Below are positions 6,584 to 26,002 of a DNA stretch of 48,129 nucleotides, piece after piece. The stretch is from assembly GCA_030040965.1 (NCBI GenBank), contig JASHOT010000350.1, forward strand, positions 1 to 48,129, written 5' to 3'. Origin of the DNA: Candidatus Sulfotelmatobacter sp. (GTDB lineage Bacteria; Acidobacteriota; Terriglobia; Terriglobales; Acidobacteriaceae). The position numbers and the translations under genes were made by a program. The notes under the pieces are model-generated. The model searched no databases. It was not told the DNA's origin and worked only from the letters and a program-made list of their open reading frames with translations. The stretch's first letter is position 1, and each line of letters starts with the position of its first letter.

Positions 6584-8113
6584 CTATCCCACCATCGCCG
6601 TTCGTTTTGCAATCGTTCCGGCCAGCCGTGCCTCGGCCTGGTGCACCGCGCGGCGCGCGGCCTTGATCGCTTCATTCGTCGTCGACTCCGGCCCTTCGGA
6701 ATCTGTGTTAGCAAAGAAGACGCGATCCATCGGCTGGCGCACGATCGGCTGGATTTGCGTGTAGAGTCCCGGCGTCGACATATACATGGGATGGCCGCGC
6801 CGGTAGATGTGCACCTCGATCGGATTGATGCTCGTCTCGGGCGTGAGCTTCTGAAAGTCGCGGAGAACGTCGGCGGCGAGTTCTTTTGCGCCGTCGTCGG
6901 TCAGGAGGCGCGGCCGATCGGTCTCACGCAGCGGCGTGTAGCAGCTCAGGATGTTGTATTTCTGCTTGTATCCCGGCTTTTTGCGGATCACCCAATCGGC
7001 CACAATAAAATCGGTAAATGTATTTCCTGGACACCAGTTGTCATATCCGCGGTTGAACACCGGCCCGTTGAAAATCAAGTTGACCACGCAATAGGGAGCG
7101 TAGCGAATGGCTTTCATCGCGTTGCTCTGTTTTTCGGGAATGTCTTCCACTATGCGACGCGTGATGAACTTGGGCGTCGCCATAATCACGGCTTTTGCAC
7201 TGACGGTTTTCAATTCTGCGCCGAGCATGTAGGTAACTTGTACCTCTTCCTTGCCGGGAACGACGGCGACAATGGTCGCGCCGGTCTGCATGCGCGCCCC
7301 ATAAACGGGTTGCAGAATTTCGGCGAGCTTTTTCGTGATCGCACCCAGTCCTCCGGGAAACGTGTAGCGATTGTCTTCGCGACTCGAGATTACGTTGTAC
7401 TGCAGCGCTTCAATGCCCATGCTTGCGGGCGTGTCATCGCTGGTTGAGCCCCAGTTGGATGGTCCAAACGTATCCCACCACTGCTTCACTTCGGCGGCGT
7501 AGACGCCCATGAAACTGGAAAACGGTACCGTGAAAAGTTCCTCGCCGCGCTTGTCCAGGTCGATAGCCATCATCTCTTTGCGGAATTTCTTGAAGCTCTC
7601 CACCACGAACGGCGGATAAGGAAGTTTTCCCAATCCCTCGCCCCACGTGTCGGGAACGAACTTGCCGTTGATGATGCTGCCATCGGGGCAATTGACGGGC
7701 AGCGGCTCCAGGCCAATTTCCTTCGAGAATTGAAATGCCTCCGATTTCGCTTCCAGAAACGCGGCTCCGGTTGCGTATGTGCTGCCGTCATATTCCATGA
7801 GATAAGCGTTGCCGCCCCAGTGCGGTTCTTTTTCAAGCAGCAATGCGTTGCGATGCTGCAATTGGTGCGCGGCGGTCAGGCCGCTGACCCCGCCGCCGAC
7901 GATCACGACATCATGTTTGGCCGAGGCTGGCGGCCGCGAAAAGATTTTGCCGTCGCGAACCTCGTGGCAAATGCGATTGCTTTCGCCGTCGACGGTCGCG
8001 CCGCCATGCGACTCCGTGTTTTGTGCGGAGACAAGAGAAAGATCCAGCGGGCATCCTGCCGTTACGGCACCAGCCACCACAAACCTGATGAACTCCCTGC
8101 GATTTGCGCTCAC
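6584..8113 (-). CDS. Tat-exported FAD-dependent amine oxidase-like oxidoreductase
   Basis: The 509-residue protein has a GTG start overlapping the permease stop (GTGA) and preceded by GGAGG. The N-terminus ANRREFIRFVVAGAVTAG is a twin-arginine signal, so the folded flavoprotein is probably exported. The FAD-binding Rossmann motif is HDVVIVGGGVSGLTAAHQL near residue 68, followed by LLLEKEPHWGGNAY. The C-terminus (RVFFANTDSEGPESTTNEAIKAARRA) is the usual flavin-closing segment of the amine oxidase/protoporphyrinogen oxidase clan. It is the last gene of a polyamine-type ABC import operon, which points to oxidation of an amine in the periplasm. The exact substrate cannot be read from sequence; spermidine dehydrogenase-like activity is a hypothesis. 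Confidence 0.8.
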   Translation of the reverse strand: MSANRREFIRFVVAGAVTAGCPLDLSLVSAQNTESHGGATVDGESNRICHEVRDGKIFSRPPASAKHDVVIVGGGVSGLTAAHQLQHRNALLLEKEPHWGGNAYLMEYDGSTYATGAAFLEAKSEAFQFSKEIGLEPLPVNCPDGSIINGKFVPDTWGEGLGKLPYPPFVVESFKKFRKEMMAIDLDKRGEELFTVPFSSFMGVYAAEVKQWWDTFGPSNWGSTSDDTPASMGIEALQYNVISSREDNRYTFPGGLGAITKKLAEILQPVYGARMQTGATIVAVVPGKEEVQVTYMLGAELKTVSAKAVIMATPKFITRRIVEDIPEKQSNAMKAIRYAPYCVVNLIFNGPVFNRGYDNWCPGNTFTDFIVADWVIRKKPGYKQKYNILSCYTPLRETDRPRLLTDDGAKELAADVLRDFQKLTPETSINPIEVHIYRRGHPMYMSTPGLYTQIQPIVRQPMDRVFFANTDSEGPESTTNEAIKAARRAVHQAEARLAGTIAKRTAMVG

Positions 8114-8982
8114 TTTGCCTCCCCGGACTTAGCCTCAATCAACTCCATGCCAACCTCTGCTCCGCCCTCGCCGCGAACGCGCAGGCGGTACCAGAAGACG
8201 ATCGTCACCAATGAAAAAAGAAAAATAATTGTGGAGATCGCGTTGATCTCGGGAGTGATGCCGCGGCGCAATCTTCCCCAGATTTCGAGCGGCAATGTGT
8301 TGTCGCGACCGATCAGAAAGAAGCTAACCGCAATCTCGTCCATGGAAAGCGTGAAGATCAGCAAAGCCGCACCGATGATCGAAAGCTTCAGATTCGGCAC
8401 CGTGATCCGCCAGAAAGTCTGCCAGTAATTGGCGCCGAGATCGAGCGATGCTTCCTCCTGGCGGCGATCCAGTTTTTGCAGTCCGGCGAAGACCTCGGTG
8501 GTTGCAACGGAAATGAGCGCGGTGCCATGGCCAAGCGTGATGGTAAGCAGGCTGAGTTGCTGTCCAGTCACCAATTTCAGAATTGTCGATACAAAGCCGA
8601 CGTTGAACAACATCAGCAGCGACAACCCGGTGATTATGCCGGGCAAAATCAGCGGCAAGAGAACGAGCCGTCGAAATAACGCCTTGCCGGGGAAATTCGC
8701 GCGATCGAGCGCGAGCGCCGCTGGCACGCCGAACGTGAGAGAGATCGCCATCGCAGCAAACGCAACTTTCAGGCTGTTGAAAACAGAATCCCAGATCGAT
8801 TCATCGCTGAGCAGGATGCGATACCAGTCGAGCGTCCAATGATGTGGAGGGAATCCACCGACTCCTTCTCCGTTGAACGAATACACGATCAGAACTGCGA
8901 TCGGCAAATACAGAAACGCAAAGACGGCGGTGGTATGCGCGACCAACCAGCGCGAGCGCGACGAATTGGCGGCGTCGGTCAT
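8110..8982 (-). CDS. potC: Spermidine/putrescine-type ABC transporter permease (PotC-like)
   Basis: This is the second inner-membrane permease of the importer. The start chosen is ATG 8982, which overlaps the upstream stop in ATGA and has GGAG six bases before it; a second ATG 12 bases upstream is possible. The 290-residue chain has six hydrophobic segments, starting with WLVAHTTAVFAFLYLPIAVLIV. The binding-protein-dependent transport loop near residue 185 is EEASLDLGANYWQTFWRITVPNL, matching the EAA motif that docks with the ATPase. The C-terminus runs four bases into the flavin oxidase gene. Confidence 0.9.
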   Translation of the reverse strand: MTDAANSSRSRWLVAHTTAVFAFLYLPIAVLIVYSFNGEGVGGFPPHHWTLDWYRILLSDESIWDSVFNSLKVAFAAMAISLTFGVPAALALDRANFPGKALFRRLVLLPLILPGIITGLSLLMLFNVGFVSTILKLVTGQQLSLLTITLGHGTALISVATTEVFAGLQKLDRRQEEASLDLGANYWQTFWRITVPNLKLSIIGAALLIFTLSMDEIAVSFFLIGRDNTLPLEIWGRLRRGITPEINAISTIIFLFSLVTIVFWYRLRVRGEGGAEVGMELIEAKSGEAK

Positions 8983-9830
8983 GCGAAGCTCCATTTCTTC
9001 TCCAGCTTTTCAGAAAGAAAGAGGAGGCACAAAACCAGCAGCAACATACCGAGCGAGATCGCCGCGCCCAGCGGCCAGTTGTAAGCCGCGCCAAACAAGC
9101 TGACGACAATATTGGAGATCATGATGCCGCTGGGTCCGCCCAGCAAGAGAGGTGCGAGAAAATCGCCGAGACTTAACACGAAGGCGAAGGTCGCTCCTGC
9201 CACAACGCCGGGAATCGACAGGGGGAAGATGACGTGCCAGAAAGTTTGCGCCGGGGTTGCTCCCAAGTCATGCGATGCCTCAACCAGATTTCGCGGAATG
9301 TGTTCGAGCGCCGCATAAATCGGCAGAAAGGCAAAAGGCGTATAGATGTGCGTCAATGTGAGAACCACGGCGAACGGACTGTATAACAGAAATTCAAGCG
9401 GATGCCTGGTCAGGTGCAAATACTGCATCGACGTATTCAGCACACCATCAGAGCCGAGGATCGTCTTCCACGCGTAAGCTCGCACCAGATAACTGACCCA
9501 CAGCGGAATAATGACCAGTTGATAGAGAAGATCTTTTCGCCTTCCCGCGTAGAAGGACATGAAATACGCCAGCGGATATCCCAGAAACAGAGAAAACAGC
9601 ATCACGCGCGCGGCGATCCACATCGAGCGCAGCAGCGTTTCCCAATAAACCGGCTTTTCCAGCAGTTTCCGGTAGTTGTCGAAGTTCCAGCTGTGAACGA
9701 TACTCTGCGTCGACGAAACCGACCAGAAGCTGTAGCAGAACATCAGCAGGTAAGGAATCAGTAGAAACACCGCGACCCACGCCACCGGAGGCACGGTGAT
9801 GACCATCCTGTAAGCGCGTGAAAACATCAC
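8979..9830 (-). CDS. potB: Spermidine/putrescine-type ABC transporter permease (PotB-like)
   Basis: This is the first permease subunit, 283 residues, six membrane segments starting at VPPVAWVAVFLLIPYLLMF. The EAA loop near residue 200 reads VEASHDLGATPAQTFWHVIFPLS. The start is either GTG 9830, overlapping the potA stop as GTGA, or ATG 9827 just after; AGAGG precedes both. The overlap on both sides shows tight operon packing. It pairs with PotC to form the channel served by the PotA ATPase and the lipoprotein PotD. Confidence 0.9.
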   Translation of the reverse strand: MMFSRAYRMVITVPPVAWVAVFLLIPYLLMFCYSFWSVSSTQSIVHSWNFDNYRKLLEKPVYWETLLRSMWIAARVMLFSLFLGYPLAYFMSFYAGRRKDLLYQLVIIPLWVSYLVRAYAWKTILGSDGVLNTSMQYLHLTRHPLEFLLYSPFAVVLTLTHIYTPFAFLPIYAALEHIPRNLVEASHDLGATPAQTFWHVIFPLSIPGVVAGATFAFVLSLGDFLAPLLLGGPSGIMISNIVVSLFGAAYNWPLGAAISLGMLLLVLCLLFLSEKLEKKWSFA

Positions 9831-10915
9831 GTCCTCTCCGGAGATTCGCGAACCGGGACTGCATCTGTGGCCGTAAACTCCAGTGCGATCTCTTTGTCCG
9901 GCTCAATCCTGTTGGCGGTTCTCACGGTCAAAACCAGCCCACCGCAATCCACGCGAATCAACTCCGTAGCGCCGTGAAATGCCTGATGCACGACTCGCCC
10001 GCGAACACGGATGGAAGAGCTTGCACCCGAATCGCCGGTACGAATGTGCTCCGGGCGCAGAGAGAAAAGTGCGGGGCCATCGGGAAGTGAGGTTTTCCAG
10101 CGCAGGCCATTGCACTCGGCCATCCCTGCGCGGATTTCGCCTTTCAGCAGATTTGTGTGGCCGATGAACTGTGCGGCGTAGGCCGTGGCGGGAAAGCTGT
10201 AAATGTCTCGCGGAGTTGCGACCTGCTCCAGTTCGCCGGAGCGTAGAAGCGCGATACGATCGGACATAACCATCGCTTCTTCCTGATCGTGCGTGACGAA
10301 GACAAATGCGATTCCGACTTCGCGCTGCAGGGACTTCAATTCGACCTGCATCTGGCGGCGAAGGTTGGCATCGAGCGCGGACAGGGGTTCATCGAGAAGC
10401 AGCATCTGCGGACGGTTTACGAGGGCGCGCGCCAGGGCAACACGCTGTTGCTGGCCGCCACTGATTTTCGATGGCTTCGATTTCGCATAAGCCGTCATTC
10501 GTACTTTTTCCAGAGCTTGTGCAACTCGCTCGGCGATCTCCGCGGCCGGTCGTTTCGCCACGCGCAATCCATAGCCGACGTTTTCTTCAACACTTAGGTG
10601 AGGAAAAAGAGCGTAGTGCTGGAAGACTGTGTTGACGCGCCGTCGGTAAGGAGGTTTACGGTCGAGCCGTTCGGCGCCCATCCATACTTCGCCGGACGTA
10701 GCACTCTCAAATCCGGCGATGATGCGCAACAGCGTGGTTTTTCCCGATCCGCTCTCACCAAGGATCGTGAGAAATTCTCCTTCGGCGATCTCCAGAGAAA
10801 TGTTGCGCAGCACGACATTTCGGCCAAATGTTTTCGCGACCGCGCGAATGCTCAGCAGCGTGGGCTTCGCTGCCGAGGAAACGCTATCGATCGCACTCGG
10901 AGTAGTTGCCGCCAT
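9827..10915 (-). CDS. potA: Spermidine/putrescine-type ABC transporter ATP-binding protein (PotA-like)
   Basis: This cytoplasmic ATPase energises the importer. Over 362 residues it shows Walker A GESGSGKTTLL near residue 56, the Q-loop in VFQHYALFPHLSV, signature SGGQQQRVALARAL near 153, Walker B LLLDEPLSALD near 175 and the switch histidine in FVFVTHDQEE near 208. The last 100 or so residues form a TOBE domain, as in PotA/CysA-type proteins. It begins nine bases after the potD stop codon, and its own stop overlaps potB. No strong ribosome site is seen, which fits coupled translation. Confidence 0.93.
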   Translation of the reverse strand: MAATTPSAIDSVSSAAKPTLLSIRAVAKTFGRNVVLRNISLEIAEGEFLTILGESGSGKTTLLRIIAGFESATSGEVWMGAERLDRKPPYRRRVNTVFQHYALFPHLSVEENVGYGLRVAKRPAAEIAERVAQALEKVRMTAYAKSKPSKISGGQQQRVALARALVNRPQMLLLDEPLSALDANLRRQMQVELKSLQREVGIAFVFVTHDQEEAMVMSDRIALLRSGELEQVATPRDIYSFPATAYAAQFIGHTNLLKGEIRAGMAECNGLRWKTSLPDGPALFSLRPEHIRTGDSGASSSIRVRGRVVHQAFHGATELIRVDCGGLVLTVRTANRIEPDKEIALEFTATDAVPVRESPERT

Positions 10916-10924: not shown

Positions 10925-11992
10925 CTACTGTGCCGCTTTCACCTCGTTCCAGATTTCGTTGTACTTGGCGCGGCGCGGAACGTTTTGCCAGAAATAAAGC
11001 CGCTTTTGATAGTTGTCGACGTCATCGAGATGCAGCGTTTTCACATCTTCGCGGGTCATGAACTGCGCGGCCTGCGGATTGGCCGGCACATAGCGGGTTA
11101 CATCGGTTACGAGCTTCTGCGTTTTGGCTTGCACCATGTATTCCAGAAACGCCGTGGCCAATTCTTTGTTTTCGCTTCCCGCAGTAATCATCAGGTGATC
11201 GATCCAGCCGGTTGTGTTTTCTTTCGGAATGGTCTCTTCGACCGGGAAGTTTTTCTTCCTGAGTTCCGCCGTATTCAGCGGCCAGCCCATGGCGATCACG
11301 ACTTCGTGATTCTCGAAAAGGTTGGTGAGCTCTCCGCCCGTGGCCCACATTTTGCGGATGTTGGGCTTCAACTCCAACAATTTTTTCTTGACCGCCTCCA
11401 GCTGTTCATCGCTCAAATTGTAGAGTCGCGAAGGATCGGGCTTGTCGAATCCCAAAACCTGCGCCGCCATGTAGACGGTCGACAGGTCGTCCCAAACCGC
11501 GACTTTGCCTTTGTACTTCGGATCCCAGAACACGCTCCACGAATCGGGAGGAGTGGGAAACACGGTTGTGTCGTAGATGATCGGGTCGGGCCCCCACATG
11601 AACGGCACACCGTAAACTTGTCCGTTCGCATGCACCAGGGGCAAAGAAGTGAGCTGCGGAGAAAGCTGGCTGTAAGTTGGAATCTTCGACAAATCGAGAG
11701 GCGCGGCCAATCCCGAGGCCACAATCGAGGTAGCCACATCACTCGAAGGCGAGATCACATCGTAGTTTCCGGCGCTGCCGCCGCGCAGCTTCGCCACCAG
11801 TTCATCGCTCGATCCCATGTACGAAGCTGAGACCTTGCAATGGTTCTGCTCTTCGAATGCTTTCACGAACGATGGATCGGCATAGCCTTCCCATACCAGC
11901 AGATTCAGGGTTGGCGTTTTTTTCGTGCATGCTCCCGCAAACAATATTGCCGCCAGAAGAGGCAGTAAATGCGCCACATGCCGCCAGTACAT
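10925..11992 (-). CDS. potD: Polyamine-type ABC transporter substrate-binding lipoprotein (PotD/PotF-like)
   Basis: This captures substrate for the importer. The start is ATG 11992 with GGGAGGG five bases upstream; the frame extends further but without a site. The signal peptide ends in a lipobox-like LFAGAC near residue 22, so it is probably a lipoprotein. The mature part opens with LNLLVWEGYADPSFVKAFEEQ, the usual beginning of PotD/PotF proteins. Later marks are YDVISPSSDVATSIVASGLAAPLD and the domain-crossing VPFMWGPDPIIYDT. At 355 residues it has normal length. Ligand preference (putrescine, spermidine or another cation) cannot be settled by eye. Confidence 0.9.
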   Translation of the reverse strand: MYWRHVAHLLPLLAAILFAGACTKKTPTLNLLVWEGYADPSFVKAFEEQNHCKVSASYMGSSDELVAKLRGGSAGNYDVISPSSDVATSIVASGLAAPLDLSKIPTYSQLSPQLTSLPLVHANGQVYGVPFMWGPDPIIYDTTVFPTPPDSWSVFWDPKYKGKVAVWDDLSTVYMAAQVLGFDKPDPSRLYNLSDEQLEAVKKKLLELKPNIRKMWATGGELTNLFENHEVVIAMGWPLNTAELRKKNFPVEETIPKENTTGWIDHLMITAGSENKELATAFLEYMVQAKTQKLVTDVTRYVPANPQAAQFMTREDVKTLHLDDVDNYQKRLYFWQNVPRRAKYNEIWNEVKAAQ

Positions 11993-12032
11993 TTTCCCTC
12001 CCGCCTGCGAGATCCTCGATTCGTTTCTCAAT

Positions 12033-12827
12033 CTAAAATGTCGGAGGAGTGTTTACCCACAGCAGCCAGGTTTCCTTGCGTCCCGGATTTCTCCACCGAT
12101 GCGGCGTTGCACTTTCGAAATAAAAACTGTCGCCGGTTTTCAGATAATACTGTTCGCCATTCAGTTCGATCTCCAGATCACCGCGCAACACGTAAATGAA
12201 TTCCTCACCCTCGTGCGTATAAGAGTCGCCGCTGCCCGCGTCGGGGGCGACGCGGAACAAATGCGGCTCCATGACCGTATTACCCCAGGCCAGCAGTTCC
12301 ATTCGTACGCCTTCGCCGGCCTCGAGAACCTTGCGCTCAGCCGGGCGCACTTGCCGGCTGCTGGCTCCGTTCGCGTCATAGAATTCCAGAATATTGGTCT
12401 TGTAATAGCGCGCCAGCTTGCGCAGCGTTCCCACCGAACCGCTCATTTGCGACCGTTCGAGCGCACTCAGAAATCCAACCGAAATCCCGACGGCGTTGGC
12501 TACCTGTGCCAGTGAGAGCTTGCGTCTTGATCGGAGTTGACGCAGGTGAGCACCAATTGCGCCGGTATTGCCATCAGCAGCCGGACGTACCTTGCCTTCC
12601 CGCTTCAGCAATTGCACGATGGCCGCTGCGTTCAGGCCCCGCACCTTGCGCAGGAAGCGAGCGCGCTTGAGCACTTTTACATCTTCTGCCGCGTAGAGGC
12701 GATACTTGCTTTCGGTACGGCGCGGGCGGGTCAGTCCCAGGCTTTCCCAGGTACGGATCACTGACGGCGACACTCCAACCTGCTTCGCCACATCTCCGAT
12801 CTTTAAATAACTCTTCCCGGACTTCAT
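12033..12827 (-). CDS. MerR-XRE-cupin three-domain transcriptional regulator
   Basis: The 264-residue protein from ATG 12827 (MKSGKSYLKIGDVAKQVG) joins two DNA-binding folds and a sensor. Residues 7-75 are a MerR winged helix (IGDVAKQVGVSPSVIRTWESLG, then YRLYAAEDVKVLKRARFLR). Residues 91-148 are an XRE/Cro helix-turn-helix (LRQLRSRRKLSLAQVANAVG). Residues 185-258 are a cupin barrel with HEGEEFIYVLRGDLEIELNG and the final histidine in SATPHRW. XRE-cupin proteins such as PuuR are known polyamine regulators; the added MerR domain is the odd part. It lies 40 bases before potD on the same strand and divergent from the TonB receptor, so it likely controls both and itself. Confidence 0.85.
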   Translation of the reverse strand: MKSGKSYLKIGDVAKQVGVSPSVIRTWESLGLTRPRRTESKYRLYAAEDVKVLKRARFLRKVRGLNAAAIVQLLKREGKVRPAADGNTGAIGAHLRQLRSRRKLSLAQVANAVGISVGFLSALERSQMSGSVGTLRKLARYYKTNILEFYDANGASSRQVRPAERKVLEAGEGVRMELLAWGNTVMEPHLFRVAPDAGSGDSYTHEGEEFIYVLRGDLEIELNGEQYYLKTGDSFYFESATPHRWRNPGRKETWLLWVNTPPTF

Positions 12828-12950
12828 GATTTCGCACCCGCGGCAGGACGGTAAGAGAAAACACAGGATCGGAAACCTTATGATCGCAATCACAGTTTTC
12901 TCTGCGAGAAACGCGTTTTTTCTCCTTGACAGTCCCCGCTATGCTTCTCT

Positions 12951-12975
12951 AACCTTGCGGGATTATAGCAAGGTT
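12951..12975. promoter_or_regulatory. Perfect inverted repeat, probable operator of the MerR-XRE-cupin regulator
   Basis: AACCTTGC, nine bases, GCAAGGTT: eight-base arms with no mismatch, in the 237-base gap between the divergent regulator and TonB-receptor genes. The arms resemble known MerR-family operator halves (ACCTT...AAGGT). The spacer contains the TATAAT of the leftward promoter, so binding would block or remodel it. The repeat is seen directly; the binding protein is inferred from position. Confidence 0.6.
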
Positions 12976-12989: not shown

Positions 12990-13064
12990 GCTGTGGTTTC
13001 AACGAAAAAAATCAGCTCTCCGCCGTGTCTGACTCACGGGCGTGGGGAGATGCGTGGAGGTTCC

Positions 13065-16000
13065 ATGCCGTCACTGCGAGCCCGCTGGATTATGCTGTCG
13101 CTGTTGGCTGCTCTTCTTCCTTCGATGCTGGTCGGTCAGGGCGCCACCGGCCGCATTCTCGGCCGCGTTGCCGATCCTTCCGGCGCAGTGCTCGCCGGCG
13201 TGAAGGTCACGCTTACCAACCAGGGGACGGGAGTCGGCGTTCAGGCTCAGACGAATGACAGCGGCGATTACTCTTTCGTGAACATCGTCCCGGGAACCTA
13301 TCAGGCGAGCTTCGAGCTCAAAGGATTCAAAAAGAACGTTCAGAAGGACATCATTCTCGACGTCAACCAGGTGTTGACATTGAATTCCGTGCTGCAGATC
13401 GGTGCGACACAGGAAGTCGTCGACGTGACTTCAGAAGCTCCGCAGGTCGACACCACCAGCACGCAGCTCGGGGCAGTGATCAACGACCGCTCCGTCAACG
13501 AATTGCCGTTGAACACGCGCGATACGTATCAGTTTCTGCAGCTGCAGCCCGGCGTGCAGTCGCAGTTAGGTTCCAGCGGCAGCCTATTCTTCGGTTCCGA
13601 CGATCCTGGATCCGTCTCCGTCAATGGCGGCCGCACTCGCGCCAACAATTTCAGCGTCAACGGCGGAGACGCCAACGACCAATTTGTAAACACCCCGACC
13701 ATCGAGCCCACGCCCGATGCCGTCGAAGAATTTCGCGTCATCACCAATACGTTCGACGCCGAATACGGGCGCAACTCAGGATCAGTCGTCAATGTCGTCA
13801 CCAAGTCGGGCACGAATCAGTTCCACGGCAATATCTACGAGTACTTCCGCAACACGATCCTCGACGCGAAAGGCTTTCCCGCTCCCACCACGCCACAGCT
13901 CAATCAAAATCAGTTCGGTGGCACATTCGGCGGCCCCATCAAGAAGGACCGGACCTTCTTCTTTCTGTCCTATGAAGGGCGCCGAATCCGCGCGGGACAG
14001 GTTGGGCAGTTAGTAGCTGTACCTACCGGCACACCAGCCACGGCGACTTCGCCCGCCACCGGAGAGTTCGGCGGAGATTTTTCCGCCTCGGGAGTACCGT
14101 TCGTCGGAGGTATTGCCAACCCTTTCGTGGCGCAGGTTCTCGACGGCCGTCCCGGCTGCGATGCGGCCCTGGGTCTACCCGCCAATGGCATTTACAACAT
14201 GGGAACGCCCAGCTGGGCCAGTGTTTTTCCAAACATGATTATTCCGACGGCCTGCCAGGATCCCGTCGCCGCCAACCTTCTTCAGCAATTTGTGCCCCCC
14301 GCCAACATCGGCTCCAACGGATACGAAGCGGTTCCGGTGGGAACCGACAATGCGAATCAATTTACCTTCCGCTTCGACCACAGAATCAACGACCACCAGG
14401 GCTTCACTGCTTACTACTATTTCAACGATGGCGTGCAGCTTCAGCCCTACAACACGTTTGAACAATCCGGCGCTAATCTGCCGGGTTTTGGAAACTACAA
14501 CGATCTCCGCTTCCAGCAGTGGAACCTCACGCACACCTGGACTATCAACAACGCCCTGGTCAACGAAGCCCATTTCACCTACATGCGCGAGGGCGAACTT
14601 GGTTTCCTGAAATCGCAGTCGACCGGCGCCGTTACATCCTCCTGCACCGGCCCAGCAGTTCCGTATTGTTTCACGGGTGTGTCGGACTCGAACTCTGGCT
14701 CGAATTCCCTTCAGGGACAGTTCGGAACCAACCCCAAGTACGGCATCACTCCCGGTTTGCCTTCAAATCTGACGGGCGTTCCCTACGTCATCATCGGAGG
14801 TGGCGCCGAGTTCGGCAACAACTGGGAAGGATTTCTTCCTCAGGTGGGTAACAGTTTTCAATGGACTGACGGCCTGACGTGGGTCAAAGGCAACCATACA
14901 ATGAAGTTCGGGGCAGAGGTTCGACGCGCCCGCTTCGACCAGTATTATTACTTCGATATTAACGGCTACTTCAGCTTCAGTAACACCGGACCCAACGCCA
15001 TCGTTCCTGGGGACCAGAGCAACTATGCCGAGTACTTGCTGGGGCTGCCTGATCTCTACATTCAAGGATCAGGCCAGCGCGAAGATATTCGCAGCACCGC
15101 GGTCTACCCGTTCGTTCAGGATAGCTGGAAGATCAAACCGAACCTGACGCTGAACTACGGCCTGCGCTGGGAGTTCAATCCACCATTGGTCGATATCGCT
15201 CAACACGTCGAGACATTCCGGCCCGGCGAAAATTCCACGGTTTATCCTTGCGGAATCACGACCAGTGCCTCCTACTGGGAGAGCTTGGGCGTATCGAATC
15301 CCACCTGTGCGAACACCGGCACAACACCGACGGGTTTGGTCGTCCCCGGCGATCCGGGCGTTCCCCCCGGCCTAACCTCAACCTATTACAAGGCCTTTGC
15401 CCCGCGCATTGGAATCGCCTACAGCCCCAACTTCAGCAGTGGCCCACTCGCCGCATTATTTGGCAGCAATGGCAAGACCAGCATTCACGCCGGCTTTGGA
15501 CTGTTCTACAATCCGATTGAAGAATTGGTCGCGGCGCAGTTTGGCGCCGAACCTCCCTTTGGCGGAAGTTCCTCGCTGTCGGACGTTTTCTTCAACACGC
15601 CGTTCGTCGGCCAGGGAGGCTTTACCAATCCCAATCCCTTCAATGGCATCATCACGCCAACCAAAGGTCAACCCACCGATTTGTCGTTGTTTCGCCCCAT
15701 TCTTCTCTATGGCGATTTCGAGCCCCATCTGCGCACTCAGTACACCAGTCAATACAATCTCACCATCCAGCGTGAGTTAAGCACCAGCACCATGCTGCAG
15801 ATTGGGTATGTCGGCTCCGAGGGACATCGCTTGCTCGCGTCGCACGACATCAATCCCTCGACCCCGCAGAGCTGCCTAGACATTATGAGCGTTGCCGCTG
15901 AGAGTCCGAATCCCAGTACCAATCCTTACGTGACATCCTATGGTTCGGGAGCCAACTGTGCTCCCACTTTCGAAGACTCTCAGTGGACCATCGTACCCCA

Positions 16001-18526: not shown

Positions 18527-19978
18527 TTGTCTACCACCGCCCAACCCGCCCAGCCACATCTGATCCGTGCCCTCGGGCGCCGCGATCTTGTGCTGCTTTT
18601 CGTGGTCGCCGTTTTCAATCTCAACGTAGTTCCGTCGATTGCCGCCAACGGCGGCGTCACGGTCTGGCTCTGGATCATCTCACTCGTCCTCTTTTTTTGG
18701 CCGCAAGGCATCGCCGTCATCGAGCTCGCGCATCGCTACCCGGGCGAAGGCGGCGTGTATCTGTGGGCCAAAGAAGTTTTCGGCGACTTCCACGGATTTC
18801 TCTCCGGTTGGTGCTACTGGACCAACAACATGCTCTACGTGCCCACGGTGATGCTCTACTTTGTGGGAGTTTCGGTCTACGTGCTTGGCCCGGGGCATCA
18901 GGGACTGGCCGACAACAAGCTTTTTGCCTCGATCGCCTCGCTTACTTTGTTGGCGTTACTCACGCTCTTCAACATTCTCGGCCTCGGCGTGGGCAAGTGG
19001 ATCAATAATCTCGGCGCGATCGGTACGTTCGTTGCCGCGGCCGTGCTGATTGGACTTGGCATTGTCGTTTTCTCGCGCTTTGGCACCACTATGACCGCGG
19101 CAGACTTCAAGATCCCGGCCAATCCAAAGTTTGTTCTGAATTCTTTCGGCGTGATCTGTTTCGGTCTGGTCGGTCTCGAACTCGCTTCTGTCATGGGCGA
19201 CGAAATTCAAGACCCCAGCCGCACTCTTCCCGGTGCAGTTGCCCTGGGCGGAATTCTTTCCGGCGCGCTCTATGTGGGTGCTACGTTGGCCCTGCTGATC
19301 GCGATTGGAAAAAACGTAAACGTGCTGCAGGGAATCGTTCAGGCCGTCACGCATATGGCGGCACAGGTTGGGCTCGGTGGAATCACGATTCCGTTCGCGA
19401 TCATGCTCAGCCTGTCCATTGCCGGCATTGGTTCGGCCTGGATGGGCGGCTCGGCTCGCATTCCCTTCGTCGCCGGCCTCGACTCGTACATGCCGTCCTG
19501 GCTCGGCAATGTGCATCCACGCTATGCGACACCCTATGCGGCGTTGATTGTCCAGGGAATCGTGTCCGCAATCCTTGTCATTCTGAATTTTGTTGGCGCG
19601 GGCGTGCAAGAAACCTTTCAGAAACTGCTGTCGCTTGCCGTCGTGTTGCAGCTTGTTCCCTTCGTCTACATGTTCGGTGCGCTGGTGAAGTTTGCCGCGA
19701 CAGAGTCCGTTCCAAAAGGTCAATACAGCCGTGCAACGATGTTTGTCGCTGGCCTGAGCGGATTTCTGACTACGCTTCTCGGAATCGCTCTGGTATTTTT
19801 TCCGGCCCAGCAGATTACCTCTCTACGGTCTTACGAAAGCTGGATGGTTGGCGGCACGCTGTTTTTCATCGGTCTAGCGGCATTCTTCTTTTTCGTCTAC
19901 GGACGGAACAAAGTGCCGCAGCCGATTCATGTGGGGACAGCCGAGGCGGCTGTCCAGGCGACCGACGCTCGACGGTAG
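18527..19978 (+). CDS. APC-superfamily amino acid/polyamine permease
   Basis: A 483-residue inner-membrane transporter with about 12 hydrophobic segments, the first being LVLLFVVAVFNLNVVPSIAANGG. The start is the TTG at 18527 (MSTTAQPAQPHLIRALGRRD) because the frame has no better start and homology-like sequence begins soon after; there is no strong ribosome site. The GEGGVYLWAKEVFG loop after TM2 and EIQDPSRTLPGAVALGG in the middle are typical of the glutamate:GABA antiporter/amino acid permease branch. Set between aminotransferase and aldehyde dehydrogenase genes, it likely moves the amine, GABA or a product. The last 15 or so codons run through a perfect palindrome (19935-19955). Confidence 0.87.
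   Translation: MSTTAQPAQPHLIRALGRRDLVLLFVVAVFNLNVVPSIAANGGVTVWLWIISLVLFFWPQGIAVIELAHRYPGEGGVYLWAKEVFGDFHGFLSGWCYWTNNMLYVPTVMLYFVGVSVYVLGPGHQGLADNKLFASIASLTLLALLTLFNILGLGVGKWINNLGAIGTFVAAAVLIGLGIVVFSRFGTTMTAADFKIPANPKFVLNSFGVICFGLVGLELASVMGDEIQDPSRTLPGAVALGGILSGALYVGATLALLIAIGKNVNVLQGIVQAVTHMAAQVGLGGITIPFAIMLSLSIAGIGSAWMGGSARIPFVAGLDSYMPSWLGNVHPRYATPYAALIVQGIVSAILVILNFVGAGVQETFQKLLSLAVVLQLVPFVYMFGALVKFAATESVPKGQYSRATMFVAGLSGFLTTLLGIALVFFPAQQITSLRSYESWMVGGTLFFIGLAAFFFFVYGRNKVPQPIHVGTAEAAVQATDARR
19935..19955. repeat. Perfect palindrome inside the APC permease 3' end
   Basis: Arms GGACAGCCG and CGGCTGTCC around AGG. It is read as coding sequence for the permease tail (TAEAAVQA). It resembles a mobile REP-type hairpin that has become part of the gene end. 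Confidence 0.7.
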
Positions 19979-20059: not shown

Positions 20060-21541
20060 ATGCCCAGCGGAGTCCAGACCGAAGTTAAAACCTACCAGAT
20101 GTTCATCAACGGCGAATGGGTTGCCAGCCAATCGGCGAAAACCTTCCCCGTCTACGATCCGTCAACTGAAGAAGTCATCGCGCAAGCTCCGGATGCAAAC
20201 GCCGAAGACGTCAACCGCGCCGTCTCGGCTGCTCGCGTCGCAATCGACGACGGCCCGTGGTCCACGACCACCGCACAGGAACGCGGCCGCGTGCTCTTTC
20301 GCCTTGCCGACAAAGTTCGCCAGAATCTTGCCGCGCTCGCTGAACTTGAATGCCGCAATACCGGGAAACCCATCGTCGAGGCCGAATTTGATATCAACGA
20401 CGTCGCCACCTGCTTTGAATACTACGGCGGGCTGGCAACAAAGATTACCGGCTCGGTGAATCCCGTCCCCGACAACGCCATGTCGCTCTCGCTGAAAGAG
20501 CCGGTCGGCGTTGCCGGACAGATCATCCCGTGGAACTATCCGCTCCTGATGGCGGCGTGGAAACTCGCGCCCGCCATCGCCGCCGGTTGTACCTGCGTGC
20601 TCAAGCCGGCTGAGCAGACGCCGCTCACCGCGCTTGAATTCGCAAAATACTTCGCGGACTGCGGCCTTCCCCCGGGAGTCGTCAACATCGTGACGGGTTT
20701 CGGTGAGACTTGCGGCGCTCCGCTCGTCCAGCATCCTGACGTGAACAAGATCGCATTCACCGGCAGCGCCGCTGTCGGGAAGATCATCGTCAAACAGGCC
20801 GCCGATACGGTGAAGCGGGTCACGCTCGAACTCGGCGGTAAGTCACCCAACATCTTTTTCGCCGACGCCGACTTCGAAGCCGCCATCGACGGCGCGCTGT
20901 TCGGCGTGTTCATCAATCAAGGCGAAGTGTGCTCGGCGGGCAGCCGCATCCTGGTGCAGAAATCTATCTACAAGAATTTTGTCGAAGCGATGACGGAGAA
21001 AGCAAAGAAAATCAAACTCGGTCCACCGCTCGATCGCGATACAAAAATGGGACCGCTCGTCAGCAAAGAGCAATACGAGCGGGTGAATCAGTACCTCGAG
21101 ATTGGCAGGAAGGAAGCGAAACTGGCTTCTGGTGGCGGACGTCCCGACAAAATCGCCAAAGGATACTACGTTCAGCCGACGATTTTTTATGATGTGAACA
21201 ATTCGGCCCGCATTGCCCGCGAAGAAATTTTTGGTCCGGTCGCAGCCGTCATTCCATTCGACGACGAAAAAGATGCGATGAAGATTGCCAACGATTCCCC
21301 ATACGGCCTCGCCGCCGCAGTCTGGACGCGCGACATTTTCAAGGCCATGCGGGCGGTGAAAAGTCTGCGCGCCGGAATCGTCTGGGTGAATCACATGCAG
21401 CCAACGTACGTCGAGGCACCCTGGGGAGGGTTCAAACAGTCCGGCTTTGGCCGCGAACTTGGTCCCTGGGGCATCGAAGAATATTTGGAGACCAAGCAGG
21501 TTCACATCAATCTGAACGAGGCGCCGATCGGCTGGTACTGA
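20060..21541 (+). CDS. NAD(P)-dependent aldehyde dehydrogenase, betaine/gamma-aminobutyraldehyde type
   Basis: It oxidises an aldehyde to the acid. The start is ATG 20060 with GGAGGG seven bases before. The 493 residues show the cofactor fold IIPWNYPLLMAAWKLAPA near 157, FTGSAAVGKII near 233, the general-base glutamate in LELGGKSPN near 257 and the catalytic cysteine in NQGEVCSAGSR near 291. The Trp-Asn-Tyr signature and overall pattern are those of BetB/PuuC/PatD enzymes that act on amino-aldehydes. In this cluster the likely reaction is 4-aminobutanal to GABA, or 3-aminopropanal to beta-alanine. Substrate assignment is inferred from the neighbours. Confidence 0.87.
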   Translation: MPSGVQTEVKTYQMFINGEWVASQSAKTFPVYDPSTEEVIAQAPDANAEDVNRAVSAARVAIDDGPWSTTTAQERGRVLFRLADKVRQNLAALAELECRNTGKPIVEAEFDINDVATCFEYYGGLATKITGSVNPVPDNAMSLSLKEPVGVAGQIIPWNYPLLMAAWKLAPAIAAGCTCVLKPAEQTPLTALEFAKYFADCGLPPGVVNIVTGFGETCGAPLVQHPDVNKIAFTGSAAVGKIIVKQAADTVKRVTLELGGKSPNIFFADADFEAAIDGALFGVFINQGEVCSAGSRILVQKSIYKNFVEAMTEKAKKIKLGPPLDRDTKMGPLVSKEQYERVNQYLEIGRKEAKLASGGGRPDKIAKGYYVQPTIFYDVNNSARIAREEIFGPVAAVIPFDDEKDAMKIANDSPYGLAAAVWTRDIFKAMRAVKSLRAGIVWVNHMQPTYVEAPWGGFKQSGFGRELGPWGIEEYLETKQVHINLNEAPIGWY

Positions 21542-21626: not shown

Positions 21627-22988
21627 ATGTCTACCATTAGAATCCGTACTGAAATCCCCGGCCCAAAGTCCCGCGCGCTTGCCGAGCGCCGTTTGAAAGC
21701 CGTGCCCCGCGGGCTTTCTCACGGCACGCCGATCTATGTTGCAAAAGCCGAAGACGCCTGGCTCGAAGACGTCGATGGCAACCGCTACCTCGACTTCGCC
21801 GGAGGCATCGGCTGCGCCAACGCCGGCCATCGCCGCAAAGCCGTGCTCGAAGCGATCAAAGATCAGCTCGACAGTTTCCTGCACACCTGCGTGCAGGTCA
21901 CTCCCTACGAAACCTACATCCACCTGGCCGAGCGCATGAACGAAGTCACTCCAGGCAAGTTTGCCAAGAAAACGATTTTCGTCAACAGCGGCGCAGAAGC
22001 CGTTGAGAATGCCGTCAAGATCGCCCGCGCCTACACGAAGCGCCCGGGCCTCATCGCGTTTGAAGACGCATTTCACGGCCGCACCATGATGACGCTCGCT
22101 CTCACCAGCAAAACGCATCCGTACAAAGCGGGCTTTGCTCCGTTCCCGAGCGAGATCTATCGCGTCCCGTTTGCCTATTGCTATCGCTGTTCGTATTCGA
22201 AAACATATCCATCTTGCGACCTTTATTGTGCGCGCCATCTCGAAGACACCTTCAAGCGCGTTGTCGCAAATGAAGAAGTCGCGGCCGTGATCGCAGAGCC
22301 GGTCATGGGAGAAGGCGGATTCATCGCGCCACCTCCGGACTATTTCAAGGTTCTCGTCGATCTCTGCCACAAACACGGCATCCTCTTCATCGCCGATGAA
22401 GTGCAATCCGGCTTCGGTCGCACCGGCGCCCTCTTCGCCAGCGAACGCTACGGGATCGAGCCCGACCTCATCGTCACCGCCAAATCGCTCGGCGGAGGTT
22501 TGCCCATTGCCGCTGTCACCGGACGCGCGGAAATCATGGATGCACCGGGTGTCGGTGGACTCGGTGGAACGTTCGCGGGAAATCCTCTTTCGTGTGCCGC
22601 AGCGCTGGCGGTGCTCGACCTATTCGAGCGTGAAAATCTGCTGCGGCGCGCCAACGAACTGGGCGACCGCTTTCAGCGTCGCGCCCGCGACTGGCAGCGC
22701 CGTTGGCCGAAGATCGGCGATGTCCGCGGGCTTGGCGGCATGCAGGCCATCGAACTGGTCCAATCCCAGGAGACAAAAGCGCCTGCGGCCGATGAAACGA
22801 AAAAAATCACGCAATACTGTTACGAGCATGGCCTTATCACGATCACCGCCGGCTCGTACTCGAATGTAATCCGCGTGCTCGTCCCGCTGGTCATCACGAA
22901 CGAGGAGATGGACGACGCACTCGACGTGCTCGAATCAGCCATCGCGACCGTGTGTGATGCTAAGGGAGCTGTAGCGCAGTTGGTGTAA
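21627..22988 (+). CDS. gabT: 4-aminobutyrate aminotransferase (GabT-like)
   Basis: The PLP enzyme converts GABA to succinate semialdehyde with 2-oxoglutarate. The 453 residues carry FVNSGAEAVENAVKIARAYT near 127, EDAFHGRTMMTLALTSK near 150, IADEVQSGFGRTG near 255, the lysine in VTAKSLGGGLPIAAVTGR near 290, and GGTFAGNPLSCAAALAVLD near 316. These match bacterial GabT/PuuE closely. An insertion near residue 190 holds a cysteine pattern (CYRCSYSKTYPSCDLYC), a feature seen in some GabT relatives. It stands next to the two aldehyde dehydrogenases that would make and use its substrates and products. Confidence 0.9.
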   Translation: MSTIRIRTEIPGPKSRALAERRLKAVPRGLSHGTPIYVAKAEDAWLEDVDGNRYLDFAGGIGCANAGHRRKAVLEAIKDQLDSFLHTCVQVTPYETYIHLAERMNEVTPGKFAKKTIFVNSGAEAVENAVKIARAYTKRPGLIAFEDAFHGRTMMTLALTSKTHPYKAGFAPFPSEIYRVPFAYCYRCSYSKTYPSCDLYCARHLEDTFKRVVANEEVAAVIAEPVMGEGGFIAPPPDYFKVLVDLCHKHGILFIADEVQSGFGRTGALFASERYGIEPDLIVTAKSLGGGLPIAAVTGRAEIMDAPGVGGLGGTFAGNPLSCAAALAVLDLFERENLLRRANELGDRFQRRARDWQRRWPKIGDVRGLGGMQAIELVQSQETKAPAADETKKITQYCYEHGLITITAGSYSNVIRVLVPLVITNEEMDDALDVLESAIATVCDAKGAVAQLV

Positions 22989-23024: not shown

Positions 23025-24515
23025 ATGAGCGTAGCCGCACCTCCCACCATCAAGCTGACCAACTACATCAATGGCCGCTGGACTGACTCTCACGCTTCCG
23101 AGTGGCGCGATATCACCAATCCCGCGACCGGAGAAATTCTCGCGCAGGTTCCCATGGCCGACGCCACAGACGTCAATGCCGCCGTCGAGGCCGCGGCCGC
23201 CGCCTTCCCCGAGTGGCGCCGCACCCCGCCCGAAGACCGCATCCAGCCGCTGTTCAAGCTGAAGATGTTGCTCGAAGAGCACATTGACGACATTGCCCGC
23301 ATCATCACACAGGAAAATGGCAAGACTTTCACCGAGGCCAAAGCCGAGATGCGTCGTGCCATCGAAAATGTGGAAGTCGCCTGCGGCATTCCCATGATGA
23401 TGCAGGGCTACAACCTGGAAGACGTCGCCCGCGGCATCGACGAGATGATGATTCGGCAGCCGCTCGGCGTGGTTGCGGCGATTGTGCCCTTCAACTTCCC
23501 CGGCATGATTGCGTTCTGGTATCTGCCGTACGCGATTGCGACTGGCAATACGTTCATTCTGAAGCCGAGCGAGCGCGTGCCGCTCACCATGCGCTACATC
23601 TACGAACTGCTCGAGAAGACTGGACTGCCGAAGGGAGTAGTCAATCTCGTCAATGGCGGCAAGGCGGCGGTAGATGCACTCATTGATGATCCAAAGGTTC
23701 GCGCCATCAGCTTCGTCGGATCAACTCCGGTTGCGCGCTATATCTATTCGCGTTCGGCCGAGCAAGGCAAGCGCTGCCAGTGCCAGGGCGGCGCCAAGAA
23801 TCACGTCATCGTCCTTCCCGACGCCGACATGCTCATGGCCACGCAGATCATCTCCGACAGTGCATTCGGCTGCGCCGGCCAGCGTTGTCTTGCCGTTTCC
23901 GTTGCCGTAACCATTGGTGAAGCGCAAAAAACATTTCGCGATTCCATCGCGGATGCCGCCTCGAAACTGAAAGTCGGTTACGGCCTCGAAGACGGCGTGC
24001 AAATGGGACCGGTCATCACTCCGCAGAGTAAAGAGCGCGTCGAGCACCTTATAGGAGTGGGAGAAAAGCAGGGCGCGAAAGTCCTGCTCGACGGCCGCAA
24101 CGCTAAGATTTCGCGGCATGAATCAGGTAATTTCGTGAAGCCAACCATTCTCGACGACGTTCCGGCCGCAAGCGAAATTACCGACACGGAAATCTTTGGT
24201 CCCGTGCTCAGCCTCGTTCACGCCAACAATCTGGAGGAAGCGCTGGCCTTCCTCGAACGCAGCGCATATGGCAATCAGGCGTCGCTGTTTACCTCGAGCG
24301 GATCGGCCGCCCGTCGCTTCCGCTACGAAGCGCCGGCGGGAAACATCGGCATCAATATCGGAGTTGCCGCGCCCATGGCCTATTTCCCTTTCAGTGGATG
24401 GAAGAACAGCTTCTTCGGCGATCTCCACGGCCAGGGCCGTGACTCAATCGAGTTCTACACCGATAAGAAAGTTGTAGTCGAGCGCTGGGCCAAGGAGCAC
24501 AGCCGCAAATTCTGA
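23025..24515 (+). CDS. mmsA: CoA-acylating methylmalonate-/malonate-semialdehyde dehydrogenase
   Basis: This family converts methylmalonate or malonate semialdehyde plus CoA and NAD to propionyl- or acetyl-CoA. The 496 residues start at ATG 23025 with GAGG upstream. Family marks are [29 protein letters not shown] near 158, [12 protein letters not shown] near 228, and the catalytic cysteine region [15 protein letters not shown] near 283. In place of the usual general-base glutamate it has the MmsA-type CQGGAKNH, as expected for CoA-dependent members. In this locus it could complete beta-alanine breakdown after transamination to malonate semialdehyde. No valine-pathway genes are in view. Confidence 0.92.
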
Positions 24516-24542
24516 GAAACCATTGTGCAATCGGGCAATTTT

Positions 24543-24614
24543 GTAATTGGTAATTGAAAAACCTTTCGGCAACTTGGCTTTGAGCGGTTCTAAACTACCC
24601 AATTACCAAATTAT
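24543..24614. repeat. AT-rich heptad repeats in inverted arrangement
   Basis: GTAATTG occurs twice in tandem at 24543-24556, and a near-inverse, CAATTACCAAATTA, starts at 24600. The two arms could pair around a loop of about 43 bases. The gap (24516-24664) is much richer in A and T than the flanking genes. Confidence 0.6.
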
Positions 24615-24664
24615 CCGATTACAAATTCATCTGCGATACTCTCGCGTTCGCAACTGAGGATCCT

Positions 24665-26002
24665 ATGACAACAACTCTCGCCACGCCATCCATGACCGGA
24701 CAGGAAATCATTGATCTCAGCAAGAAGCACACTCTTTTCGAGTGGTCAGCGCAGTCGAAGGTCGACCCTATTCCTGTTGCTAAAGCGAAGGGCATTTATT
24801 TTTTTACGCCGGAGGGCAAGCGCTTCATCGATTTCAATAGCCAGTTGATGTCGGTAAATATCGGGCACGGCGACGAGCGGGTCATCAACGCCATCAAACA
24901 GCAGGCTGAGACGCTGGCCTATGCCAATCCTTTCATGGCACACGAACCGCGTGCCCGGCTTGGTGAGAAGCTTGCGGGAATCTGCCCTGGCGACATTGAC
25001 ACGTTTTTCTTCACCAACGGCGGCGCGGAAGCGAATGAGAACGCCATCAAACTCGCTCGCTTCTTCACCGGACGTCACAAGATCATCGCGCGCTACCGCT
25101 CCTATCACGGTGCAACCGCCGGCGCGATTTCGATTACGGGCGATCCGCGTCGCTGGGCCGTTGAGCCCGGTATGCCGGGCGTGGTTCGCGTGCTCGATCC
25201 TTATCATGGCATTGAGCGCGGCTGGGACTCGACCGAAGCTTCTCTCGCGCTGATCGAGGAGACGATTCAGCTCGAAGGCCCGCAGAACATCGCCGCGTTT
25301 ATTCTTGAGCCGATCACCGGAACCAACGGCGTCCTCGTTCCTCCCGACGGATATCTCGAAGGCGTGCGCAAGTTGTGCGACGAGCACGGAATCCTGATGA
25401 TTGCTGACGAAGTCATGTCGGGCTTTGGCCGCACGGGAAAATGGTTCGCGGTCGATCACTGGAGTGTCGTTCCCGATCTGATCTCCTTGGCCAAGGGATT
25501 GACTTCGAGTTATCTTCCGCTCGGTGCTGTGGGCATGCGGCATCACATTGCGCAGCACTTCCAGGACAAAGTTTTCTACGGGGGCCTGACCTACAACTCG
25601 CACCCCATGGGATGTGCCGCGGCCCTGGCGACCATCCGCGTCTACGAGGAAGACAACCTTATCGAAAATGCGCGCAGGATGGGCGAGATCATGAAGGAAA
25701 TGGGCACGCAGCTGCAGGCGAAGCATCCTTCAGTCGGTGCAGTTCGTTCCATTGGCTTATTTGGCATCGTGGAACTCATTCGCAGCCGCAAAACCCGCCA
25801 GCCACTGGCGCCCTTTAACGGTACGTCGGAAGAAATGGCCGCACTCGGCAAGTTCTTTCGCGAGAACGGACTCTACACGTTCGTGCGTTGGAATACATTT
25901 TTCACGAATCCTCCGCTCTGCATCAATGAAGTGCAACTGCGCGAAGCGTTTGCCATCATCGACCGGGGACTTGAGATCACTGACAAAGCGGTAAAGGATT
26001 AA
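24665..26002 (+). CDS. Class III aminotransferase, taurine/beta-alanine:pyruvate type
   Basis: The 445-residue PLP enzyme starts at ATG 24665 with GAGGA before it. It shows FFTNGGAEANENAIKLARFFTGRHKI near 117, RYRSYHGATAGAISITGDPRR near 145, IADEVMSGFGRTGKW near 246, the PLP lysine in LAKGLTSSYLPLGAVG near 279, and GGLTYNSHPMGCAAALATI near 310. These resemble omega-amino acid:pyruvate and taurine:pyruvate aminotransferases more than GabT. It may take beta-alanine to malonate semialdehyde, feeding the MmsA-type enzyme just upstream. Taurine use is the main alternative, but no sulfoacetaldehyde gene is nearby. Confidence 0.85.
   Translation: MTTTLATPSMTGQEIIDLSKKHTLFEWSAQSKVDPIPVAKAKGIYFFTPEGKRFIDFNSQLMSVNIGHGDERVINAIKQQAETLAYANPFMAHEPRARLGEKLAGICPGDIDTFFFTNGGAEANENAIKLARFFTGRHKIIARYRSYHGATAGAISITGDPRRWAVEPGMPGVVRVLDPYHGIERGWDSTEASLALIEETIQLEGPQNIAAFILEPITGTNGVLVPPDGYLEGVRKLCDEHGILMIADEVMSGFGRTGKWFAVDHWSVVPDLISLAKGLTSSYLPLGAVGMRHHIAQHFQDKVFYGGLTYNSHPMGCAAALATIRVYEEDNLIENARRMGEIMKEMGTQLQAKHPSVGAVRSIGLFGIVELIRSRKTRQPLAPFNGTSEEMAALGKFFRENGLYTFVRWNTFFTNPPLCINEVQLREAFAIIDRGLEITDKAVKD

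Follow-up and report, generated by a model that had tools for sequence, protein, structure and literature searches.

The described system closest to the locus presented here, which lies on a 48,129-nt contig of Candidatus Sulfotelmatobacter sp. (JASHOT010000350.1; "the window" denotes this whole stretch), is the polyamine pathway of Pseudomonas aeruginosa, which in the sections of the review drawn on here (PMC9397018) runs through SpuC, KauB and GabT, with SpdH. Like that pathway, the locus has a Pot-type importer, a class III aminotransferase, a predicted aminoaldehyde dehydrogenase suited to two arms, a gamma-aminobutyrate (GABA) transaminase and a path from beta-alanine to acetyl-CoA, and SpdH-like enzymes occur in the genome; unlike it, the first aminotransferase is GSAM-like rather than SpuC, and the genes form a divergon with an Oar-like receptor, a (methyl)malonate-semialdehyde dehydrogenase (MMSDH) and a MerR-XRE-cupin regulator, here called REG. 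The Puu pathway of Escherichia coli provides another parallel, in that the XRE-cupin half of REG resembles PuuR and both systems have an APC permease, an aldehyde dehydrogenase and a GABA transaminase, whereas REG has an extra MerR domain; a scan confined to the proteins of the locus showed no gamma-glutamyl-putrescine synthetase or hydrolase. The kind of pathway is known, and the unusual parts of the locus are its outer-membrane receptor, its first aminotransferase and its fused regulator; no publication on it was found among open-licence papers. We read the locus as a divergon for polyamine uptake and catabolism, most likely of putrescine and spermidine, with a probability that we put at about 0.68 from the sequence evidence.

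The window is part of a 5.87-Mb draft genome (93.6% complete). Its proteins were scored against Pfam and NCBIfam models, with the curated model cut-offs, and together with the list of open reading frames (ORFs) these scores place every gene named in the original prediction where it had been put:

6584-8113, minus strand: flavin amine-oxidase-family protein with a twin-arginine (Tat) signal (NRREFIRFVVAG); PF01593, 84.3 bits; optional member
8110-8994, minus strand: PotC-type permease; PF00528; best NCBIfam model PotC, 160.9 bits, cut-off 326
8979-9830, minus strand: PotB-type permease; PF00528; best NCBIfam model PotB, 202.4 bits, cut-off 348
9827-10915, minus strand: PotA-type ATPase; PF00005 and TOBE_2; best NCBIfam model PotA, 370.5 bits, cut-off 482
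10925-11992, minus strand: PotD-type solute-binding protein; PF13416; ORF opens at 12031
12033-12827, minus strand: regulator REG, with MerR helix-turn-helix (HTH), XRE HTH and cupin; Pfam/NCBIfam and alignment; ORF opens at 12893
12926-12931, plus strand: -35-like TTGACA towards the receptor, within CTTGACA in 29/29 aligned intergenic regions
12951-12975, no strand: operator-like palindrome AACCTTGC-GGGATTATA-GCAAGGTT, 25 bp; alignment and pattern scan
12962-12967, minus strand: -10-like TATAAT for the leftward operon, inside the palindrome; from the sequence
13065-16958, plus strand: Oar-like outer-membrane receptor; PF25183, 616.6 bits, and PF13620; ORF opens at 12993
17066-18448, plus strand: GSAM-like class III aminotransferase; TIGR00713, 391.1 bits, cut-off 527.3
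18527-19978, plus strand: APC-family permease, GadC-like; PF13520; TIGR03813, 158.1 bits, cut-off 650
20060-21541, plus strand: ALDH1, omega-aminoaldehyde dehydrogenase-like (BADH/AMADH-like); alignment to spinach BADH
21627-22988, plus strand: GABA transaminase; TIGR00700, 558.8 bits, cut-off 506.65 (passed)
23025-24515, plus strand: CoA-acylating MMSDH; TIGR01722, 563.6 bits, cut-off 448.5 (passed)
24665-26002, plus strand: class III aminotransferase, probably of beta-alanine/taurine type; PRK06062 subfamily, 524.4 bits, cut-off 472 (passed)

The leftward ORFs overlap or lie end to end, with gaps of -16 to 9 bp, and are therefore read as a single operon running from the regulator through PotD, PotA, PotB and PotC to the oxidase; the rightward gaps measure 36-149 bp. 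A search with the regulator at E 1e-30 gave a match in 55 of 101 genomes, the window's own included, and PotD was matched in 53, weakly (28-31% identity) in G077 and G096. The surroundings of 30 genomes, every one picked for having the regulator, were then compared by mapping 24 query proteins, counting only where the contig allows. The receptor is kept in 30 of 30, the GSAM-like enzyme in 29 of 29, and the APC permease, ALDH1 and the GABA transaminase in 28 of 28 each, and the order of these five is identical wherever the contig permits. PotD stands beside the block in 27 of the 30, lies on another contig in G057, and is missing from G056 and G003; G053 keeps PotD with no PotABC within the adjoining 11 kb. 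The window's type of third aminotransferase is present in 14 genomes, while four (G048, G049, G056 and G057) have another class III enzyme in its place. As this slot and MMSDH vary between genomes, the C3 arm of the pathway is less fixed than the C4 arm. Several genes are in two pieces (PotD and PotA in G034, PotA in G094, ALDH1 in G037, APC in G027, the receptor in G029), which may be an effect of assembly or decay.

The block extends over two families of one class, and its presence in named genomes labelled Candidatus Sulfotelmatobacter, Acidobacteria gp1/gp2, Acidobacteriaceae, Acidobacteriales and Terriglobia was likewise noted; in Silvibacterium (L116) homologous genes are rearranged. TypA flanks it in 17 of 19 genus members and in G049, as well as in four named loci at 70-76% regulator identity (L102, L104, L105 and L108), and in none of the other ten relatives, so that the block outlasts this neighbour. 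The locus is not general in the phylum: among 297 sampled genomes, its own included, the GSAM-like enzyme was matched in six (E 1e-140) and PotD in four (E 1e-60). The two halves, whose separate conservation would have spoken against the original prediction, are co-conserved and share one palindrome.

This palindrome, AACCTTGC-N9-GCAAGGTT, was present in all 29 intergenic regions aligned (the window and 28 relatives), 18-19 bp after CTTGACA (45 bp in one), and its two 8-bp arms are perfectly complementary in 24 of them. The window contains a single match at up to 3 mismatches, and 100 shuffles contained none. Among the 101 genomes the palindrome occurs in 54, that is, in all 55 with the regulator except G021, in which the regulator starts 72 bp from the contig end, and in none of the 46 without it; comparison by eye placed all 54 within 150 bp of the regulator match, and a reversed control pattern matched only one genome of 101 (G085). 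Its centre holds the leftward TATAAT and its left end overlaps the expected rightward -10, so that it appears to be placed like a repressor site. MerR-family dyads are of the ACCTT/AAGGT type. A general consensus scan was uninformative: it gave 7 sites resembling promoters (7.2 expected) and 23 resembling terminators (23.1 expected). It did not report CTTGACA. In its gene content, order and co-conservation, and in a palindrome tied to its regulator, the locus is real and conserved, and its two operons are predicted to be jointly controlled.

The palindrome was also found at 13 places away from the regulator in the 101 genomes. Two precede replacement permease genes (G003 and G018) and three precede SpdH-like genes (G048, G040 and G006), both described below, and a further two share a contig with SpdH-like genes, as judged by coordinates only (G023:C128 and G027:C286). 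One, on G009:C5 (L185, 3679-3703), is a variant with 2 mismatches upstream of another Oar-like receptor gene. The one in G054:C25 falls within the reading frame of a dehydrogenase and is regarded as a chance match; the remaining four are G000:C101, with broken arms, G049:C158, G025:C489 and G005:C210.

The probable start of REG is ATG 12827, as judged from the alignment; it is the sole in-frame ATG near the start. Against the PuuR model NF007408 REG scores 79.8 bits (cut-off 211, not passed), through its XRE-cupin half only. Among its distant full-length relatives (from the best 80 of 565 candidates), 19 of 29 have a GABA-transaminase gene no more than 600 bp away, 18 of these 19 in Rhizobiales, and this adjacency suggests that the effector is GABA or a closely related compound. 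The 18 rhizobial loci (among L121-L147) resemble ours in that a related regulator (39-44% identity) is accompanied by genes for a GABA transaminase and for an aldehyde dehydrogenase, an SSADH in the single locus tested; they differ in that no receptor or GSAM-like enzyme was found in them, Pot genes occur only in L130, and the exact palindrome arms were not found; upstream of the distant relatives as a whole, AACCTT/AAGGTT was found at 0 of 23 loci. In one record viewed (L226) the rhizobial protein is annotated merely as MerR family, and these relatives may represent a regulator of rhizobial GABA use that has received little study. Two acidobacterial relatives lie near third-aminotransferase-like and MMSDH-like genes (74% and 45% in L143, 39% and 76% in L132), so the C3 arm may form a separate module. 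Paralogous MerR-XRE-cupin regulators (44-46%) share contigs with SpdH-like genes in three genomes (G011:C7, G038:C357 with L096/L097, and G043:C70).

On the uptake side, PotD does not pass an equivalog model of NCBIfam (YdcS 141.3 bits, cut-off 725; PotD model NF007048 107.1, cut-off 582), its matches in the PDB include PotD and PotF, and its start is lipoprotein-like (LFAGAC). The receptor combines an Oar-type barrel (PF25183) with an N-terminal carboxypeptidase-regulatory domain (PF13620), which together we take to justify the name Oar-like; it probably starts at ATG 13065 behind GGAGG, and no Plug family was reported for it at E 0.001. The original prediction had called the combination with such a receptor unusual, a view that we abandon: the genome holds 117 matching stretches, so many that the presence of an Oar-like receptor is normal for the group, yet this particular one is tied to this locus. 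The importer is exchanged in two genomes. In G003 (L182, 5806-8036) a second palindrome precedes a SnoaL-like gene and, after it, an APC permease gene where the Pot genes would stand; in G018 (L183 and L184, two contigs) a second palindrome again precedes a SnoaL-like gene, the permease found in G003 adjoins the regulator on the other contig, and the tail of PotC (residues 234-292) is left next to the palindrome. The replacement permease (E 1e-120) is limited to these two of 61 genomes, neither of which has a PotD match anywhere, and its best model scores are far under the cut-offs (216.5 of 740 bits for a urea-system permease, 161.8 of 598 for an amino acid permease). Here the importer seems to have been exchanged for a non-orthologous one under the same control.

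The GSAM-like aminotransferase is not HemL, reaching 391.1 of the 527.3 bits required, while the HemL of the genome lies elsewhere and scores 597.2; the two are 35% identical. Nor is it of the GABA/putrescine type (144.8 bits against 612 for the putrescine aminotransferase model NF008570). It passes the wider subfamily model NF000818 (412.4, cut-off 398). The lysine that binds pyridoxal phosphate and R39 are kept in 42 of 42 sequences, and a near-invariant PYWWDEQW occupies the position of the HemL catalytic glutamate; we take the roles of these residues to be those of GSAM, in which the counterpart of R39 presumably binds a carboxylate. Retention of this arginine would suit a substrate with an acid group, so GABA or beta-alanine could be substrates as well. 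The HemL model matches six regions of the genome, namely the three aminotransferases of the locus, HemL, ArgD and a PRK05769-type enzyme, and this search detected no further class III enzyme. In a distant family, G207 has genes for another class III aminotransferase and for a GSAM-like protein (47%) after PotDABC, with no aldehyde dehydrogenase match within 19 kb, and G124 has ALDH1, APC and GSAM-like genes together.

The best plasmid-borne relatives of the GSAM-like enzyme are haloarchaeal (43-46% identity; among the matches listed, 20 of 1936), and the loci of seven of the nine haloarchaeal matches among these 20 were viewed. Within 8 kb, six of the seven have an ABC importer with a solute-binding protein, Pot-type or other; five have a glutamine-synthetase-family gene, three a class II histone-deacetylase-like gene, two agmatinase and one MMSDH. 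Histone-deacetylase-like enzymes can deacetylate polyamines. The one weaker bacterial relative viewed (39%) has none of these polyamine-type neighbours. Such clusters (for example those of Natribaculum, Natronosalvus and Natronorubrum) resemble the locus in their homologous aminotransferase and importer, and in one case MMSDH, and differ in their glutamine-synthetase-family genes, their other regulators and the lack of an outer membrane. Their neighbourhoods are the best independent hint that the GSAM-like family works on polyamines.

The dehydrogenase that would act next, ALDH1, falls below the cut-offs of whole-protein models (PRK13473, 525.2 of 615; TIGR03374, 404.1 of 909.3). In the alignment with spinach BADH, D107 and D110 correspond to D111 and D114 of ALDH1, present in 39 of 39 loci, and A441 to I440, which is Ile in 36 of 39 and Val in three; we take the role of the two acidic residues to carry over from the plant enzyme. 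The plant pocket tryptophan 285 is Ile or Val in ALDH1. Ile at 441 marks those plant ALDH10 enzymes that oxidise 3-aminopropanal and 4-aminobutanal and hardly betaine aldehyde, according to the part of the work drawn on here (PMC4046141). By these residues ALDH1 is predicted to belong to the I441 aminoaldehyde type. The KauB enzyme of Pseudomonas accepts C4 as well as C3 aldehydes, as the sections of the review used here describe (PMC9397018), which is the two-arm scheme that had been proposed for this locus. Downstream, the nearest solved structure to the third aminotransferase is a taurine:2-oxoglutarate aminotransferase (6jix). MMSDH has R111, R287 and C288 in 25 of 25 loci, which we assume to be the catalytic Cys and the two conserved Arg of such enzymes. 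The proposed polyamine route thus agrees with the enzymes in both its C4 arm (ALDH1 and GABA transaminase) and its C3 arm (MMSDH), the latter being, as said, the less constant.

A central part for the flavin oxidase is not supported. It is present in 15 of 28 assessable relatives, and it is probably periplasmic or exported on account of its twin-arginine signal, a Tat-like RRxF motif found in all 21 sequences (the window included, at least two genomes counted twice). Its family is, in broad terms, that of the flavin amine oxidases, its matches to MAO-type structures in the PDB are weak, and the fold predicted from six sequences is too poor for use (mean pLDDT 53.7). Other flavoproteins came to light through the palindrome: those in G048, G040 and G006 precede genes for exported proteins of about 650 residues (one partial), whose Pfam and NCBIfam matches are weak and whose relatives on Sphingobium plasmids (43-44%) are annotated as spermidine dehydrogenase SpdH in three of the 14 records found. 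In L188 (7988-14169, from G048) and L191 SpdH-like genes stand in tandem after palindromes, and the gene in L190 is also preceded by one; L188 carries in addition a molybdopterin/2Fe-2S oxidoreductase pair on the other strand.

We scanned 52 regions upstream of SpdH-like genes (51 of 81 such places, and the partial gene of L190) for the dyad, allowing up to one mismatch in the 12 arm bases. It was present in 16 of the 52, against about 0.1 expected (0.075 in shuffles), in a set whose upstream regions are related and in which some of the scanned genes are second in tandem; 822 kb of other DNA held three sites without the operator core. Three of the 16 regions had first been found through the palindrome, so that the fair count is 13 of 49. 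These dyads agree with the earlier suggestion that the use of both arms would fit spermidine.

From the sequence we infer the substrates, the directions, and the binding of REG and its sign, as follows. The Oar-like receptor would pass a polyamine or polyamine conjugate across the outer membrane, and PotABCD, perhaps with the APC permease, would provide inner-membrane passage. The GSAM-like aminotransferase would convert a terminal amine to an aminoaldehyde, assisted in some genomes by exported flavin oxidases or SpdH-like enzymes. ALDH1 may then oxidise 4-aminobutanal to GABA and 3-aminopropanal to beta-alanine; the GABA transaminase would lead the C4 arm to succinate semialdehyde, and the third aminotransferase with MMSDH would take beta-alanine through malonate semialdehyde to acetyl-CoA. 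REG, acting on one palindrome overlapping both promoters, would switch the two operons jointly; it would probably be a repressor that leaves the DNA on binding a ligand derived from an amine.

Several observations weigh against this reading. The block lacks a PatA/SpuC-type aminotransferase, the putrescine model being outside the best 25 for the other two aminotransferases, and the kept R39 would be ill-suited to a diamine, unless it serves the amino acceptor. Nine of eleven PotD pocket positions, a list that we assume to be correct, are kept, and two are changed (Y85 to D and E171 to T). None of the 13 SSADH matches in the genome exceeds the TIGR01780 cut-off, which only three of 14 control genomes pass. 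PotD is without a match in four of the 55 regulator-bearing genomes (G003, G018, G044, which is 61% complete, and G056), and MMSDH is found in 23 of 27 assessable relatives, being absent from G050, G079 and G094 and represented by a 49% relative in G087. As to the dyads, 36 of the 52 SpdH-like upstream regions have none, including that of the SpdH-like gene in the window's own genome, for which the available upstream sequence is limited to 239 bp, and nine of the 13 non-circular ones are of one related type (AGCCTTACTAGAAACCCGTAAGGTT and near variants), which might be bound by a sister regulator.

The main rival, which we consider rather unlikely, holds that GABA and beta-alanine, free or cut from small peptides by an S58 enzyme, are the true nutrients, that the Pot-type importer carries them, and that the three aminotransferases make semialdehydes from amino acids with no diamine step. 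It would account for the kept arginine of the GSAM-like enzyme and for the altered PotD pocket, one weak PDB match of PotD being a fluorescent GABA sensor, and it is in keeping with GABA transaminase and MMSDH being the surest enzymes, with REG relatives marking gabT in Rhizobiales (where SSADH is over its cut-off in the one locus tested), and with those in L143 and L132 lying near C3-arm genes. It would likewise give a task to the gene that, among the 30 relatives, adjoins the block in five further genera of this family and that in the window is

26933-28192, minus strand: S58 beta-aminopeptidase-like protein with a signal-like N-terminus, a patchy accessory; PF03576, 394.9 bits

This protein is of the DmpA/BapA type in a PDB search, and in other members of the genus its gene was not seen within up to 2-3 kb past the last gene. 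The ORF at 26271-26939, which extends into the end of the S58 gene, has DUF4118 and PAS with no kinase domain reported, and may be a short sensor or a broken kinase. The rival leaves the aminoaldehyde residues of ALDH1 without a purpose, however, and it explains neither the dyads at SpdH-like genes nor the haloarchaeal relatives beside agmatinase, glutamine-synthetase-family and histone-deacetylase-like genes.

A different cargo, namely an N-acyl or phenolic amide of a polyamine that the receptor would import and from which a secreted amidohydrolase, lost here, would free the amine to be degraded by the rest, seems improbable to us. An Amidohydro_3 protein with a signal-like N-terminus does lie between REG and PotD in 14 of the 30 relatives (11 of 11 outside the genus and three of 19 inside); of the named loci that could be assessed, 12 of 17 have it as well, the exceptions being L098, L099, L100, L103 and L110; its ortholog (E 1e-150) occurs in two of 61 genomes, solely at this locus, and some haloarchaeal clusters have histone-deacetylase-like, deacylase and amidase genes. 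This gene is an ancestral extra of the block, but it is not essential, because it is absent from most of the genus, as from the window, L110 and L103, while all else stays; no match at E 1e-150 was found elsewhere in the window's genome either. That two unrelated operons stand back to back by chance is the least credible account: the rearranged pieces in Silvibacterium and the genomes missing Pot genes would suit it, yet the order is kept over two families, one palindrome lies inside both promoter regions, and the replacement permease is under the same palindrome. With these alternatives weighed, a polyamine divergon is the reading that we prefer. A bolder version of it, to which we incline only tentatively and which may well be wrong, would have the GSAM-like enzyme belong to a new polyamine aminotransferase family shared by Acidobacteriota and haloarchaea, with a dedicated receptor for polyamines or their conjugates and one MerR-XRE-cupin regulon that includes exported spermidine dehydrogenases.

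The terms "TonB" and "outer membrane" are absent from the portion of the one polyamine review searched for them (PMC9397018). If the preferred reading is correct, these mostly uncultured soil and peat acidobacteria would have a specific way to use polyamines as a source of carbon and nitrogen, and the locus would offer a candidate outer-membrane polyamine receptor, a candidate polyamine aminotransferase of a new type, and a compact candidate regulator-operator pair.

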